DNA of 64,000 nucleotides from Curtobacterium sp. MCBA15_009 (GTDB taxonomy: Bacteria; Actinomycetota; Actinomycetes; Actinomycetales; Microbacteriaceae). The position numbers and the translations under genes were made by a program. The stretch spans positions 351,854-415,853 of the forward strand of contig NZ_MJGO01000039.1 of assembly GCF_001864895.1 (NCBI RefSeq), in the 5' to 3' direction. Below are positions 2,064-63,463 of this stretch, in pieces (the stretch's first letter is position 1; every line of letters begins with the position of its first letter). The notes below the pieces were generated by a model. That model saw nothing but the letters and a program-made list of their open reading frames with translations, was not told the DNA's origin and searched no databases.

Positions 2064-3353
2064 TCAGTCAGGGGCGACGTCGTGCTCGCCGACGACCGAT
2101 GCGGGGACCGCGTCGTCGGAGAGCGTGCCGCGAGACCCCGCGGCGAGGGAGAACGAGTCGTCGGTCGAACCGACGGTGCCGACGGCGGTCGCGCCGCCGG
2201 TGGTCGAGGAGGCGCTGCCACCGAGGACACCCGCGACGGGCGCGTCGGACGGGCCGCCGTGGCCGTTCCCGTCGGCGGGCACCCGGAGTGCCGTGCCGCC
2301 GACCGTCGCGTCCGCGACGTCCGCCGTCGCGCCGGGGGTCACCGTCACGCCGGAGATCACCGTCGTCGGCGTGACGGCCGAGTCGGAGATCCGCCCGTGG
2401 GCACCCGCCGGGCCCACCGGCTGCTGCCAGCGCGTCGAACGCGCAGCGGCATCCGGACCGGTCGTCGAGGCGACGGCCGGGCCAGCCGGGGCCGCAGCCG
2501 GCACGACGGAGCCGACCACCGGGGCGGTCGTGCCACCGGGCACGGGCGACGGAGCGCCGAGGACGGGATCCGAGCCTCCTGGCAGGGTCTCGCCGACGGA
2601 CGGGACGACGCCGGTCACCGTGTCGGGGACCGATCCGACGACCGTCCCGACACCCGTCAGGGTGTCGTCCACGAGGTCCGTCACCGGTGCAGTGACGGTC
2701 CCGACCACGTCGTTGCCGACGACGTCGTCGACGGTGCCCACCACGGCGCTCACCGGGCGGCCGTCGGTGACGGCCTGCACGGTGTCGGTGACGGGACGGA
2801 GCGCGCCGGCGACGGTGTCGGTGACCGGCCGGGAGGCACGACTCACCGTGTCGACGACACCCTGCGTCAGGTGCGTGGTCGACCGGGCCGCAGGGGCGGC
2901 AGGGGCGGCGTGCGTCGGTGCCGCGGCCTGGTGGGGCGCGGGAGCCGGAGCGGGGCTCGACGGCGCGGCGGGCGCGGGCTTCGGGGCGACCGCCGCGGGT
3001 GCCGGAGCGGCGGGCGTCGGCTTCGTGGCCACCGGTGCGGGCTTCGTGGCCACCGGAGCGGGCTTCGCGGGAGCCGGAGGTGTCGGGACGACGGCCTTCG
3101 TGACCGGTTCGACGACACCGCCCACTGCGCTGCCGACGCCGTTCGTGACGTCGTCGACGGCCGAACCGAGACCCTCGGTCGCGTGGCCGAGGACGCCCTG
3201 GTGGGCGCTCGTCGTCGGCGGCGCGGACTCGGCCGCAGCCGCGGGGCGCGCCCCGAACAGCAGGGAGAGCAGCACGAGCGCGGCCAGTGTCCCGACGCCC
3301 ACGAGGGCGATCCGGACGGCGGCGAGCCAGGGTGCACGAGTCGTCGTGTCCAT
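2064..3353 (-). CDS. Membrane-anchored Ala/Pro/Val-rich surface protein
   Basis: This 429-residue protein starts at the ATG at 3353, preceded by a strong AGGAGG site; longer in-frame extensions lack such a site. Residues about 10-38 are a hydrophobic helix ending in AAAAE, a signal peptide or membrane anchor. A low-complexity Pro/Ala/Lys stretch follows (KPAPVATKPAPVATKPTP), then several TDTV/VVGTVDDV amphipathic repeats, then a Gly/Ser/Thr-rich tail. No enzyme motif is visible. It lies 84 bp upstream of the chaplin-like gene on the same strand, so both may belong to one cell-surface locus. The function is unknown. Confidence 0.7.
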   Translation of the reverse strand: MDTTTRAPWLAAVRIALVGVGTLAALVLLSLLFGARPAAAAESAPPTTSAHQGVLGHATEGLGSAVDDVTNGVGSAVGGVVEPVTKAVVPTPPAPAKPAPVATKPAPVATKPTPAAPAPAAVAPKPAPAAPSSPAPAPAPHQAAAPTHAAPAAPAARSTTHLTQGVVDTVSRASRPVTDTVAGALRPVTDTVQAVTDGRPVSAVVGTVDDVVGNDVVGTVTAPVTDLVDDTLTGVGTVVGSVPDTVTGVVPSVGETLPGGSDPVLGAPSPVPGGTTAPVVGSVVPAAAPAGPAVASTTGPDAAARSTRWQQPVGPAGAHGRISDSAVTPTTVISGVTVTPGATADVADATVGGTALRVPADGNGHGGPSDAPVAGVLGGSASSTTGGATAVGTVGSTDDSFSLAAGSRGTLSDDAVPASVVGEHDVAPD

Positions 3354-9287: not shown

Positions 9288-9370
9288 GGGGTCGTCCTTT
9301 CCTCGTGCTCAACCTGGCGCGGCGAGGGGCGGAGCGCAACTGTTCCTCGGCGGTACTGACCGGTACGCAA

Positions 9371-12262: not shown

Positions 12263-12706
12263 ATGACCGAGCAGTCGCGCATCCTCGTCCTCAACGGCCC
12301 CAACCTGGACATCCTCGGCCGGCGCGACCCCGAGCAGTACGGCACCGTGACGCTCGCCGAGATCGAGGCGATCGTGCACACCGAGGCCGCCGTCCACTCG
12401 CTCGAGGCCGACTTCCGGCAGAGCAACCGCGAGGGCGAACTCGTCGAGTGGCTGCACGAGGCGCTCGACGACTTCGTCGGCGTCGTCATCAACCCCGCCG
12501 CCTACGCGCACACCTCGGTCGCGCTGCACGACGCCGTCGAGGCACTCACGGTCCCGGTCGTCGAGGTGCACCTGTCCAACACGTGGAAGCGCGAGCCCTT
12601 CCGCCACGTCGACCACGTCGCGACCGCCGCAACGGCGGTCATCGCCGGCGCGGGCGCCGACGGCTACCGCCTGGCGGTCGCGCACCTGGCGTCGCTGCTC
12701 GACTGA
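12263..12706 (+). CDS. aroQ: Type II 3-dehydroquinate dehydratase
   Basis: A 147-residue enzyme of the shikimate pathway. It dehydrates 3-dehydroquinate to 3-dehydroshikimate as a dodecamer in the cytosol. Motifs: ILVLNGPNLDILGRRDPEQY with the catalytic Arg and Tyr, DFRQSNREGELVEWLHEA, VINPAAYAHTSVALHDA, and VEVHLSNTWKREPFRHV. Length fits the family. TAGGCT (12251-12256) ends 6 nt before the ATG, so the transcript is probably leaderless. The gene is followed by the tandem non-coding repeat, not by other aro genes. Confidence 0.93.
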   Translation: MTEQSRILVLNGPNLDILGRRDPEQYGTVTLAEIEAIVHTEAAVHSLEADFRQSNREGELVEWLHEALDDFVGVVINPAAYAHTSVALHDAVEALTVPVVEVHLSNTWKREPFRHVDHVATAATAVIAGAGADGYRLAVAHLASLLD

Positions 12707-12767
12707 CGCCAGGGCCTGGGTCCGGGTCCGGCGCTCGCTCCCGGCTCACGCCTCTCGGCCACGAGGC

Positions 12768-12809
12768 GGACGGGAGGCACGGGGTCAGCCCGCCCCGGGG
12801 CTCCCGTCC
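12768..12809. terminator. GGGAGGC-family hairpin downstream of aroQ
   Basis: GGACGGGAG and CTCCCGTCC form a 9-bp stem, extended after an internal mismatch by GGGG/CCCC. It lies 62 bp after the aroQ stop inside the first repeat unit. Probable transcription end for aroQ. Confidence 0.55.
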
Positions 12810-12990
12810 GGCGCCCCGCGCGTCCACCGCGCGCAGGTTCCGTCCCATCACACGCGACATGGGAAGCACTTCCGCGCGTAGGGAGCCGGAAGAACCGGCC
12901 CCCTACGCGCGGAAGGACTGCCCTCGCGCGGAACGACCTCCTACGCGCGGAACAACACCCCGGCACCCGCCTCCTCCGCCACGAGGCGGA

Positions 12991-13026
12991 CGGGAGGCCC
13001 GGCGCCAGCCCGCCCCGGGCCTCCCG
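12991..13026. terminator. GGGAGGC-family hairpin in second repeat unit
   Basis: GGGAGGCCCGG pairs perfectly with CCGGGCCTCCC, with one extra outer C-G pair and a 12-nt loop. It occupies the position in repeat unit 2 that 12768-12809 has in unit 1. Confidence 0.55.
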
Positions 13027-13214
13027 CCCGGCGCACCGCGCCCCGCGCATCCACCGCGCGCACCTTCCGTCCCATCACACGCGACATGGGAAGCACTTCC
13101 GCGCGTAGGGAGCCGGAAGAACCAGCCCCCTACGCGCGGAAAGACTCACCACGCGCGGAACGACCTCCTACGCGCGGAACAGCACCCGGCACCCGGAACC
13201 CGGCACCCGGGGCG

Positions 13215-13811
13215 TCAGAAGTCGGCGGGGCGGCGGACCTCGGTGAGTCCGGCGGTGGCGAAGCCTCCGCGGATGAGGGGGACGGCGCGGCGGACGGCCT
13301 GGTCGATGCGGAGCTCGAGGTCGATGCTGCCGATGTCGTAGCCGCCGTCGCGCTTCGTGAAGTCCCGCTCGTTGCCGAACACGCCGAGCGGCAGGGTCGT
13401 GGACTGGAAGAAGCCGAACAGCGGGCGCATCTGGTGCTCGACGAGCAGGGCGTGCCGGTCGCTGCCGCCGGTGGCGGTCAGGAGCACCGGGGTGTCGACG
13501 AGGTCGTACTGGCCGATCCAGTCGAAGAAGAGCTTGAAGGCGCCGGAGTACGCGGCCCGGAAGGCCGGGCTGCCGACGACGAGGACGTCCGCGGCCTCGA
13601 CGGTCTCGAGCGCCCGTCGGGTGCGGTCCGACATCGCCTCGCGGGACGACGCCGCTCCGAGGTCGGCCAGCAACGGGCCGATCTCGATCGTCTCCGTCCG
13701 GGCACCCTCGATGTCCTGGGCCAGTCGCGCCACCGTCGCGCCGACCAGGGTGGACGTCCGCGAGGGGTCCGACGGGCTGCCGCTGACGCCGACCACCAGT
13801 TCTCCGCTCAT
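13215..13811 (-). CDS. NAD(P)H-dependent FMN reductase family protein, MsuE/SsuE-like
   Basis: A 198-residue flavodoxin-like protein. The N-terminal VVGVSGSPSDPSRTSTLVGA is the FMN phosphate loop, and VLVVGSPAFRAAYSGAFKLF is the second flavin-contact loop typical of NADPH-dependent FMN reductases such as SsuE/MsuE, which feed two-component sulfonate monooxygenases. I used ATG 13811; an in-frame GTG lies 15 nt upstream. Two luciferase-type monooxygenases occur elsewhere in the window (39.6 and 56.5 kb), but none is adjacent. The 3' end abuts the repeat. Confidence 0.85.
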   Translation of the reverse strand: MSGELVVGVSGSPSDPSRTSTLVGATVARLAQDIEGARTETIEIGPLLADLGAASSREAMSDRTRRALETVEAADVLVVGSPAFRAAYSGAFKLFFDWIGQYDLVDTPVLLTATGGSDRHALLVEHQMRPLFGFFQSTTLPLGVFGNERDFTKRDGGYDIGSIDLELRIDQAVRRAVPLIRGGFATAGLTEVRRPADF

Positions 13812-13899
13812 GCACACGATGCTCACACGTCGGCCGCCGCCGGGGCCGGGTTGTGACGACTTGTGTCGGGTGCCAGCGTCGCCGGGTACCGTCCGGGCG

Positions 13900-14367
13900 A
13901 TGCAGACCTTCCTGCCGTACGCCGACTTCCGGGCCTCGGCCGAGTCCCTCGACGACAAGCGGCTGGGCAAGCAGCGCGTGGAGACACTGCAGGTGATGCG
14001 GGCGTTGACGCTCCCCGACTACGGCTGGCAGCACCACCCGGTCACGGCGATGTGGCGCGGGTACCGCCCGGCGCTCATGGCCTACCAGGAGGCGACGTGC
14101 CGCGTCTGGCTGGAACGCGGTCACGCGGACACCTGCCTCGAGAAGACCCTGGCCGACCTCGCGCTGGTCCCCGAGGACCTGGAGACCTACGAGCACGGCG
14201 ACGTGCCGATCCCGCCGTGGAACCGCGACGAGGCCCTGCACCGCTCGCACCGGTCGAAGCTCGTGCAGAAGGCGCCGGAGCACTACCGCGAGCTGTTCCC
14301 CGACGTGCCCGACGACCTCGAGTACCTCTGGCCCGGGGTGCCGGAGGCCGCCGTCCGCCCGAGCTGA
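13900..14367 (+). CDS. MSMEG_6728 family protein (pyrimidine-dimer-glycosylase-like family)
   Basis: A 155-residue protein with a strongly conserved N-terminus (MQTFLPYADFRASAESLDDK, then RLGKQRVETLQVMRAL) and YGWQHHPVTAMWRGY, as in actinobacterial MSMEG_6728 proteins. These are related to Pyr_excise-type endonucleases, but activity has not been shown to my knowledge. A conserved PPWNRDEALHRSHRSKLV segment follows. TACCGT ends 7 nt before ATG 13900 (leaderless). It is divergent from the FMN reductase. Confidence 0.82.
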   Translation: MQTFLPYADFRASAESLDDKRLGKQRVETLQVMRALTLPDYGWQHHPVTAMWRGYRPALMAYQEATCRVWLERGHADTCLEKTLADLALVPEDLETYEHGDVPIPPWNRDEALHRSHRSKLVQKAPEHYRELFPDVPDDLEYLWPGVPEAAVRPS

Positions 14368-37788: not shown

Positions 37789-38280
37789 TCAGAGCTCGAC
37801 GGTGCCGTGGTCGCCGGTGTCCGGCTGGCTCTGCTTGCCGATCGCGGCCTTGAACATCTGCACGAGGCTGCCGACCGGACCGGTGTCCTGCGTCCAGTAC
37901 TCGACCGAGACGCCCTCGACGGTGAGGAGTCGGATCGACGGGTCCTGCCGCCCCTCGGGGAACCACGCCTCGGCGAACGGGGACCACAGCTCGTCGACGA
38001 CCGAGTCGTCCTGTGTGACCGTGGCGGTGCCGGCGATCGACAGGTAGCCGCCCTGCGACTCGATGGCGACGTTGACGTGCGGGTTGCGGGCGATGTCCTC
38101 GACCTTCTCGCTGCCGTCCTGCACCAGGAACCGCAGCGTCCCGTGGAAGGTCTTGTCCTGCACGGCGAGCGGACGGGCGTGCAGGTGCCCGTCCTCGCTC
38201 ACGGTGGTGAGCAGTGCGGTGTGGGCCCCGTGGACGATGTCCGAGATGGCGGCGCGCTGGTCGGTCTGCGTGTCGGTCAT
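37789..38280 (-). CDS. Pyridoxamine 5'-phosphate oxidase-fold (general stress 26-like) protein
   Basis: A 163-residue split-barrel flavin-binding protein. HTALLTTVSEDGHLHARPLA is the typical FMN-contact N-terminal strand pair, NPHVNVAIESQGGYLSIAGT the core, and VDELWSPFAEAWFPEG the general-stress-protein-26 hallmark. AAAGGAG precedes ATG 38280. It may reduce or bind a flavin or F420-type cofactor; activity is unknown. The tandem repeat array at 38.4 kb lies upstream. Confidence 0.85.
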   Translation of the reverse strand: MTDTQTDQRAAISDIVHGAHTALLTTVSEDGHLHARPLAVQDKTFHGTLRFLVQDGSEKVEDIARNPHVNVAIESQGGYLSIAGTATVTQDDSVVDELWSPFAEAWFPEGRQDPSIRLLTVEGVSVEYWTQDTGPVGSLVQMFKAAIGKQSQPDTGDHGTVEL

Positions 38281-38417: not shown

Positions 38418-38869
38418 TTCGCGCGTGGGGAGTCGAATCGCGCGTAGGAGGCCCGGACGAACGACCTCCTACGCGCGGATCTGCTTCCCACACCACGCGC
38501 GATGAGACAGAACACCCGCGGGCACCACGCCGTGGCCGGAGCGCACGCCCGGGGACCACGGTCAGCCGCGCCCGGCCGGCGCGGGCGGTGGGCAGTTCCG
38601 CGCGTGGGAAGACGAACCGCGCGTAGGAGGCCTGAACGAACGACCTCCTACGCGCGAAAGCGCTTCCCACACCACACGCGATGGGACAGAACGACCGCGG
38701 GCACGACCTCGTGGCGGAGCGAACGCCCGGACACTACGGTCAGCCGTGCCCGGCCGGCGCCGTCGGCGGAAGTCCCGCGCGTAGGAAGACGAATCGCGCG
38801 TGGGAAGCCCGAACGAACGACCTCCTACGCGCGGATCTGCTTCCCACACCACACGCGATGGGACGGAAC
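38418..38869 (-). repeat. Three tandem copies of the CGCGCGTAGGAGG element
   Basis: Cores lie at 38418-38513, 38596-38692 and 38773-38869, with unit spacing of 177-179 bp including a conserved GC-rich spacer (CGGTCAGCC). Copies 1 and 2 hold a perfect 13-bp inverted repeat (CGCGCGTAGGAGG ... CCTCCTACGCGCG); in copy 3 the left arm has drifted. Orientation is opposite to the 12.8 and 63.3 kb copies. The whole 38281-38912 gap has no credible gene. It lies at the 3' end of the 38913-39536 gene and upstream of the PPOX-fold gene. Confidence 0.8.
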
Positions 38870-38912: not shown

Positions 38913-39536
38913 TCAGGCCGGCTCGCGGATCGTGGTCTCGACGTCGACCACCTGCGGGATCCTCGGCATCGAGGCGAAGCCGAACGCGACGGGCGGGTTG
39001 AGCGGGGCGAGTGACCCGAGCGGCTCCCCCGCCCAGGTGCCGCGGACGCCGGTGACGTCGTGCGCCCCGGTCACGCCGTAGTACTCGCGACGGCCGTTGC
39101 CCGCCGAGCCGGCCGTACCGGACCCGGGGGCGACGAGCCGGGCGACGGGGTCGATCGCGGCGAGCCACCGGGGGTCGCGGGCGATGGGCTTCGGGACGAT
39201 GCGGAGCAGACGCCCGAGCGGGGAGATCGCTCCGACGTCGATCGACGCCTCGAGGGCTCCGGCCGACAGTTCCAGCCCGCGGGCGGTGCGGCGGGTGCGG
39301 ACGTCGACCACCGAGACGGTGTCGAAGCGGTAGGTGCCGGAGACGTAGGCGGCGACGATCTCGTCCGGGGCCAGGAGCACGCTGGTGCCGTCCGGCAGTT
39401 CGAGGAACACGTCGGTGAATGCGCCGAACGGCGACCGCTCCCACATCCCCACGACGATGCGCACGCCGGACGTCGTGCCGACGCCCATGATGCGTCCTCG
39501 GAACCGGCGTTCTGGTGCGGTGGAGCGTGGCGACAT
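38913..39536 (-). CDS. Conserved hypothetical protein
   Basis: A 207-residue soluble protein. The first part reads like a small beta-barrel (VRIVVGMWERSPFGAFTDVF, then DGTSVLLAPDEIVAAYVSGT and DTVSVVDVRTRRTARGLEL). A central segment LLRIVPKPIARDPRWLAAID and a C-terminal EYYGVTGAHDVTGVRGTW follow. I do not recognise the family. ATG 39536 is favoured because TACGGT ends 7 nt upstream; ATG 39488 is an alternative. Its 3' end abuts the three-copy repeat. Confidence 0.7.
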   Translation of the reverse strand: MSPRSTAPERRFRGRIMGVGTTSGVRIVVGMWERSPFGAFTDVFLELPDGTSVLLAPDEIVAAYVSGTYRFDTVSVVDVRTRRTARGLELSAGALEASIDVGAISPLGRLLRIVPKPIARDPRWLAAIDPVARLVAPGSGTAGSAGNGRREYYGVTGAHDVTGVRGTWAGEPLGSLAPLNPPVAFGFASMPRIPQVVDVETTIREPA

Positions 39537-63260: not shown

Positions 63261-63283
63261 GGGGCAAGCGTACGAGCCCGACG

Positions 63284-63443
63284 TTCCTTCCCATGGCGCG
63301 TGACGTGGGAAGCAGATCCGCGCGTGGGAGGCCGGTTCGCCAGCCCTCCTACGCGCGGAACAGCTCCCCATGCGCGGAACGACCCCCGACGCGCGAAACA
63401 GCACCCGGCACCCGGCACCCGGCACCCGGCACCCGGCACCCGG
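63284..63443 (+). repeat. Single copy of the CGCGCGTAGGAGG element with GCACCCG tract
   Basis: It has the family order: CCCAT-GCGCGTGACGTGGGAAGC, then CGCGCGTGGGAGG ... CCTCCTACGCGCG, then shorter GCGCGGAAC copies. Six GCACCCG heptamers (63401-63442) complete it. It lies between two minus-strand GNAT genes and has the same orientation as the 12.8 kb copies. Confidence 0.75.
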
Positions 63444-63463
63444 TGCGGCGGCGGGCGGCGGCG

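Follow-up and report, generated by a model that had tools for sequence, protein, structure and literature searches.

An intergenic repeat family of Curtobacterium with half-sites on a 19-bp lattice and genome-specific dialects

Genomes of Curtobacterium carry a dispersed repeat element that is placed at gene 3' ends, is built on a fixed lattice and is spelled in different dialects, and at sites shared between genomes different spellings are found in a shared orientation. We lean towards reading it as a non-autonomous, REP-like intergenic repeat family of this genus, whose copies would be spread and homogenised by an unlinked protein that reads the half-site. An earlier note had reported three tandem copies of an inverted repeat in a 64-kb stretch of DNA (the window, the whole stretch that was analysed). 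The 19-bp lattice, a conserved end called H2 and the genome-specific dialects go beyond that description.

With up to two mismatches allowed, the 13-mer occurred 19 times in the window (8 of these exact) versus 9.8 ± 3.3 times in shuffled sequence, and none of 100 shuffles reached 19. A covariance model (R1) was built from 53 elements. Because these training elements belong to dialect A (see below) and were chosen by an exact arm pattern, the invariance of the arms in alignment A1 is due to selection. On the best strand R1 recovered six elements in the window, the number given in the earlier note: two at 12.84-13.18 kb, three in tandem at 38.42-38.87 kb and one at 63.28-63.40 kb. The note had placed the same core at 12.8-13.2 and 63.3 kb; the family is indeed present there, as complete elements that extend beyond the shared core. 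Rfam gave no match in the window at gathering score.

Element 1 (12837..12949, plus strand; R1 score 91.1 bits) consists of H2 at 12837-12872, the core palindrome at 12873-12911 and array units at 12918-12930 and 12937-12949. Element 2 (13064..13176, plus strand; 94.2 bits; H2 13064-13099, core 13100-13138, units 13145-13157 and 13164-13176) is a tandem copy of element 1 with a period of 227 bp. The minus strand carries elements 3 (38420..38513; 91.1 bits; H2 38478-38513, core 38439-38477, array unit 38420-38432), 4 (38599..38692; 93.1 bits; H2 38657-38692, core 38618-38656, array unit 38599-38611) and 5 (38776..38869; 87.5 bits; H2 38834-38869, core 38795-38833, array unit 38776-38788). Element 6 (63283..63395, plus strand; 92.7 bits) has H2 at 63283-63318, its core at 63319-63357 and units at 63364-63376 and 63383-63395. 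The spans of the R1 model itself are 12837-12930, 13064-13157, 38420-38513, 38599-38692 and 38776-38869 (these three on the minus strand), and 63283-63376. Directly behind element 6, CACCCGG units form a short repeat (63404-63444).

The tandem triple at 38.4-38.9 kb was borne out, with starts 179 and 177 bp apart. Over 135 nt the second unit is 83% and the third 72% identical to the first, and units 1 and 2 also have a further 55 nt of repeated flank in common. The perfect 13-bp arms reported earlier hold for units 1 and 2; the left arm of unit 3, CGCGCGTGGGAAG, has two mismatches. A plasmid or phage origin was rejected, as the array had no match in either collection at E 1e-5.

Many genomic copies had been predicted, with a single recent segmental duplication as the alternative. 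The CGCGCGTRGGRRG pattern gave 58+58 matches (116) in the 3.65-Mb genome and its reversed-pattern control gave none, in agreement with the prediction. Since palindromes match on both strands, the number of R1 matches is not the number of elements; the genome holds about 60 or more. We analysed 60 of these own elements, at 67 bits or above and from 38 sources, and dropped weaker ones. They fall into 40 clusters (26 singles, 8 pairs and 6 triples), and the family is therefore not the product of one recent segmental duplication. All members share one orientation in 13 of the 14 multi-element clusters. In genome G041, 24 matches among those listed showed no clear departure from a uniform chromosomal spread (KS p 0.09; weak).

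The order of parts is H2, a 39-bp core palindrome and usually two more 13-bp half-sites at 19-bp steps, and the element is sometimes tandemly repeated. H2 has the consensus GTTCCnTCCCATCGCRCGYGnnnTGGGAAGCnGAAT and contains a short CCCA/TGGG hairpin. The core follows a 13-13-13 plan, constant over the genus, of a left half-site (CGCGCGTAGGAGG in A), a 13-bp spacer with a GGAA.TTCC dyad and an inverted right half-site. Right-hand units were scored against the A motif (at least 9/13) in 58 own elements, two of the 60 having been set aside because their left arm does not start with CG; the core unit matched in 100%, the +1 unit in 83%, the +2 unit in 79% and the +3 unit in 16%, versus a background of 0.4%. 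Two extra units are the mode (38/60 own elements and 26/64 others), so that the element is of defined size, about 115 bp, rather than an open-ended satellite. Single-strand folds of all six window copies were better than those of shuffled sequences (z -3.9 to -7.4), with 0/200 shuffles folding as well for five copies and 1/200 for one. In some window copies the second half of H2 pairs with the +1 unit to form one long interrupted hairpin.

Size and ends bear on a first alternative. MITEs are short, non-autonomous-looking and dispersed elements of defined size, and the Curtobacterium element shares its shortness, dispersal and defined size (two extra units being modal) with them. It starts with GTTCC and ends in a GGAAC-like sequence; if GTTCC...GGAAC were short terminal repeats, an unlinked transposase with a strict site and orientation preference could have moved the copies, which are present at some syntenic loci and absent from others. 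However, neither a target duplication nor an autonomous parent was seen, and the GGAAC end doubles as an ordinary unit spacer. The pair at C37 also speaks against this explanation, which we regard as unlikely, in that it flanks ordinary-looking ORFs; a composite transposon was rejected for these two inverted copies as well. The genome-wide transposase search covered PF01797.

Gene context was scored for 124 elements, the 60 own ones (at least 67 bits) and 64 others (at least 77 bits), with genes called by our own, unvalidated codon-model gene finder. After removal of 22 elements at locus edges and the two that overlapped a called gene (2/124), 100 were scoreable: 54 lay in convergent, 45 in co-directional and 1 in divergent gaps. 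Control gaps of more than 150 bp, taken from the window together with 40 stretches of relatives (n=254), were convergent in 52, co-directional in 138 and divergent in 64 cases. The divergent deficit (1/100 elements vs 64/254 control gaps, Fisher 1e-9) held for the named genomes alone (0/47, Fisher 8e-6). The element sits behind gene 3' ends. In co-directional gaps H2 pointed toward the upstream gene 23 times and toward the downstream gene 22 times, so gene direction does not dictate orientation there. Copy counts, model matches and gene context together support the earlier description of the element as REP/BIME-like, non-autonomous-looking, dispersed and intergenic.

At 12.8 kb the two elements have on one side the 3' end of a gene at 12263..12706 (plus strand; gene finder and ORF list), whose translation is presumably that of a type II 3-dehydroquinate dehydratase (aroQ), and on the other a convergent gene at 13215..13970 (minus strand; ORF, gene-finder start 13826), which we take to be an NADPH-dependent FMN reductase. 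The 38.4-kb triple is upstream of a gene at 37789..38280 (minus strand; ORF and gene-finder start), presumably encoding a pyridoxamine-phosphate-oxidase-like protein, and a gene at 38913..39488 (minus strand; gene finder) has its 3' end toward the triple; each of these two stretches matches 30 of 30 genus genomes. A terminator-like T-hairpin (inverted repeat I6, GGACGGGAGGC...GCTCCCGTCC; no strand assigned) lies at 12767..12810, and a second one (inverted repeat I5, likewise unstranded), at 12987..13030, was duplicated along with element 2. Within 160 bp a T-hairpin was found on the H2 side of 44/124 elements and on the array side of 11/124, against a background of 3%. It is a separate feature and also occurs at several orthologous sites that lack the element. 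A hairpin of this terminator-like kind, GGACGGGAGGC...GCCTCCCGTCC (or the GGACTGGAGGC form), is dispersed behind genes in many genus genomes.

The genus-wide scaffold is filled with half-sites of several dialects: A (CGCGCGTAGGAGG), B (CGGGCGTRCCNGG) and others. The best match per genome kept the scaffold and had different half-sites in most genus genomes. B is spelled CGGGCGTACCTGG or CGGGCGTACCGGG, and other half-sites are CGCGCGTACCGGG in G009, CGGGCGTAGCTGG in G004 and CGGGCGGAGCTGG in G043; the best match in G021 is doubtful. Among the core palindromes listed, all were B in G005 (24/24), G016 (16/16) and G052 (21/21), as counted with a pattern that also admits A and has a control of at most one per genome. 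The four listed cores of G017 are mixed, one element in G072 has its core and array spelled differently, and the copies of G023, a 73%-complete bin, are heterogeneous and weakly paired and include CGCTCGTRGG forms. On a 30-genome tree A, B and absence of the element are scattered; the tree is drawn from 6,635 columns of one 8-kb region, with some weak nodes and two genomes of less than 3 kb.

Changes in the two arms go together. The core helix has double-sided changes at 18 of 23 pairs in alignment A3, which holds 39 elements, mostly A and B, from 57 candidate loci and favours well-paired cores, as 18 weak or ambiguous loci were left out; 12 of the 15 G023 loci were dropped. Covariation was 0.280 versus 0.124 in shuffles (0/500), which preserve column make-up and not relatedness, in rows pre-filtered for pairing, and it was 0.09 or less when the partner was slid by one column. 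Further pair types showed no excess in A3 (33 vs 32.1 shuffled), and the 4-bp H2 stem had no double-sided change. In A genomes the array units, which are unpaired in the core, conform to the A motif (counted), and in B genomes they follow the core spelling (by eye). They keep the motif without a pairing partner; the motif itself is therefore kept, not the stem alone, and from this we infer a sequence-specific factor.

The same data bear on an RNA 3'-end hairpin, in which the core would act in the transcript as a terminator or stabiliser between converging genes and the arms would covary to maintain an RNA stem. Placement at 3' ends, the stable folds of all six window elements, the pair covariation in the core and the preponderance of G-U over A-C cells (119 vs 87) on the H2-to-array strand are consistent with such a role. 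We nevertheless judge it decidedly unlikely: the G-U excess stems from three arm positions with both transcription directions pooled, the array units keep the motif though unpaired, and many sites possess a T-hairpin of their own (the 44/124 on the H2 side). An intrinsic terminator is a G+C hairpin followed by a T-run, and in none of the six window copies is the core followed by such a run.

It is also conceivable that no dedicated factor is involved, and that the copies are homogenised by replication slippage, by template switching at hairpins and by ordinary gene conversion, their placement reflecting no more than tolerance of gene ends. Clusters of two or three are common (14/40, 13 in one orientation), the flank was duplicated too in both window clusters, and such processes could make the arms and array units inside one element alike. 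We give this account a small though real chance. It covers likeness within an element but not one dialect across 16-24 loci per genome, and leaves unexplained why the 13-13-13 geometry is constant throughout the genus.

Orthologous loci provide the comparison between dialects. In ten orthologous groups with different spellings, the elements of 27/27 cross pairs, oriented by their flanks, shared both gap and orientation, with A/B labels assigned by nearest motif and with L124, L134, L136, L259 and L268 oriented by eye. Orientation was likewise identical in all of the same-dialect pairs listed, some of which are the same genome twice. In the 20 bp outside H2, orthologous loci agreed with one another better than other loci did (8.9 vs 7.0 of 20; 2/5000 permutations), and the junction is therefore shared. 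H2 likeness did not differ significantly between orthologous cross-dialect pairs and other loci (21.6 vs 21.1 of 36; 805/5000 permutations). H2 is thus not locus-specific, and its strict persistence is confined to single pairs (30/36 at G018/G005 and CP121450/G002, with arms that differ at 4-5 of 13). It follows that rewriting, if such it was, reaches beyond the half-sites, and copies may have been inserted anew at an identical site and in an unchanged orientation instead of being rewritten in place. At the orthologous loci compared, where empty sites have diverged too far to reveal a duplication, no insertion was caught that had a clean empty site or a target duplication.

Both multi-copy loci of the window were followed in relatives. 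Among eleven genomes at the 12.8-kb locus, G000 and G041 have A, G001, G006 and G012 have B, and six are without the element. At the 38.4-kb locus in 20 relatives, G041 has A and G016 has B; the others are without the element, several with unrelated repeats. In G002, G003, G008, G011, G012, G018 and G022 (loci L163, L165-L168, L172 and L174) this gap holds a palindromic family of another kind (CGACACTCCACGAGTCGATCGAC...GTCGGAACATGCACACGCACC with its variants), and another tandem repeat, GAGGCTCGGCTGGGCGGACACTCTGCGGCATCCGG..., is found there in L173 (G007, without an R1 match). Repeats of several kinds in the 38.4-kb gap suggest a general repeat hot spot. Three genomes have a dispersed palindrome, CCGACRTCGAACC-13-GGTTCGAYGTCGG, with partial tandem copies (G015 at 3194, G016 at 9349, G017 at 1294 and 30920; positions within joined 80-kb stretches).

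In the reading that we prefer, the 13-bp half-site would be the recognition sequence of a putative unlinked, genome-encoded DNA-binding or DNA-processing protein. This protein, or copy-to-copy recombination promoted by it, would spread and homogenise the element. Drift in its specificity could cause the half-sites of a genome to be rewritten together, with no change of insertion site or orientation, yielding genome-specific dialects. Divergent promoter regions would be free of copies either because these are selected against there or because the element preferentially targets gene ends. A stronger form of the proposal, which we consider possible but doubtful, is a self-homogenising recognition-site system, with a fast-evolving non-Y1 protein rewriting or re-seeding dozens of intergenic half-site arrays genome-wide. 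If this were true, related species would come to use different dialects at shared loci without a change of orientation. Loci at which the spelling differs also offer a natural record of set-wise rewriting or re-seeding of a dispersed sequence in a bacterial genome. Dialects also make the mechanism searchable, a candidate being a protein whose variants track dialect independently of the species tree.

REP-like repeats are explained largely via RAYT (Y1) transposases, and the earlier note had pointed to a REP-associated tyrosine transposase as partner. That expectation failed: Y1_Tnp (PF01797) was found in none of the 30 genus genomes searched and in 5 of 14 control genomes. A RAYT/Y1 transposase is excluded as driver in the genomes searched, and the family is therefore not a RAYT-dependent REP. 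Copying by reverse transcriptase is unlikely, as RVT_1 is absent from G000 and present in 6/7 genomes that R1 does not match; overall, 16/30 genus genomes have a reverse transcriptase domain. Neighbouring genes were represented by 147 of 164 candidate proteins (17 were left out by size limits), and no mobile-element family was among the 25 commonest of their 211 Pfam families. Y1, reverse transcriptase and Competence domains in the 30 genomes and the commonest neighbour families thus yielded no trans factor. An actinobacterial genus that carries a structured REP-like family and has no detected Y1 transposase calls for a second mechanism.

The family is centred on one genus. The covariance-model search of genome and relatives that had been advised gave, besides the own elements, R1 matches in 23/30 genus genomes; matches per genome are not element counts, and, with no more than 141 candidates scored in each genome, per-genome totals are lower bounds. 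G000 had the most, at least 139 matches on both strands. A broader pattern matched in 40/60 genomes, with a control of at most one per genome. A scan of 84,980 species with the A pattern, which represents the A dialect, may omit records close to the window; it gave 74 stretches: 72 are titled Curtobacterium or Microbacteriaceae PS02333 and one uncultured Curtobacterium. The remaining stretch, L061, was discarded as a stray, with no H2, no units and no scaffold by eye. With R2 under stricter filters, six of 120 family genomes matched, namely the own genome, two more Curtobacterium and, weakly, three of other genera; the kinship of 94 non-matching genomes is not given. The matches in G174 and G146 look like unrelated palindromes. 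A long palindrome (CCGGCGTGTCTGGCGTGCGCGGCCGGAATTCC...) lies near an apparent tRNA gene in L286 (G174).

G103, the single genome sampled from another genus, has a tandem pair GTGTGAGGACG-8-GTGTGAGGACG with 20+20 matches, arranged left-left-right-right in 6/6 places examined (L303-L308). The motif-to-motif step is 19 bp and stays so across the dyad, a place at which the step in the Curtobacterium core is 26 bp. The two repeats share a 19-bp lattice and are unrelated in sequence, and the likeness may reflect common descent, common mechanism or chance. The presence of a 19-bp lattice of half-sites in another genus would, if true, make the system a wider Microbacteriaceae class.

Going by titles and the beginnings of abstracts, we recognised no description of the element for Curtobacterium or Microbacteriaceae in the literature, which agrees with the earlier impression that it is undescribed. 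The available part of a paper on tagged palindromes (PMC3733652) has no occurrence of Actinobacteria, Clavibacter, Curtobacterium or Microbacterium.

Among known systems, the DNA uptake sequences (DUS) of Neisseriaceae are, according to the portion of PMC3630211 at hand, a short motif with species dialects, often in inverted pairs at gene ends and tied to terminators. The Curtobacterium element resembles them in its short half-site motif, its inverted pairs at gene ends and its dialects, and the half-site might thus mark the cell's own DNA for natural transformation. A Competence (ComEC-type) domain is present in 28/30 genus genomes, the two misses being fragmentary genomes with the element; it is also present in 7/7 genomes without the element, and is therefore not discriminating. 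DUS have very high copy number, in the thousands, and occur also inside genes, whereas the element has 116 motif matches and near-restriction to gaps (the two gene overlaps among 124). It further differs in its 19-bp lattice and H2, and its dialects are scattered off the phylogeny, but those of Neisseriaceae follow it. An uptake role is accordingly very improbable.

BIMEs, or tandem REP arrays of E. coli, are palindromes behind genes in alternating orientation. The Curtobacterium half-sites differ in being arranged about a single dyad on a lattice with a fixed period of 19 bp, and no Y1 transposase was found. The likeness to REPs and REPINs consists in high-copy extragenic palindromes, tens to hundreds per genome, and in inverted doublets; as far as the accessible text of PMC3116915 goes, REPs also form tandem clusters of element plus flank. 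The Curtobacterium element differs from them in being a larger composite (H2, core and one-sided 19-bp array), in the lack of a Y1 transposase in 30/30 genus genomes searched, and in gaps that hold different spellings in the same orientation. In place of the GTAG-type tag at the foot of a REP hairpin, GTAG is found inside the stem in A and GTAC in B (by eye). REP classes differ between related strains, with an 'orthoswitch' of REP class at orthologous RAYT genes, according to the part of PMC3686654 available to us. On that partial source, the orthoswitch is the nearest parallel to the Curtobacterium dialects, and the dialects of DUS are another.
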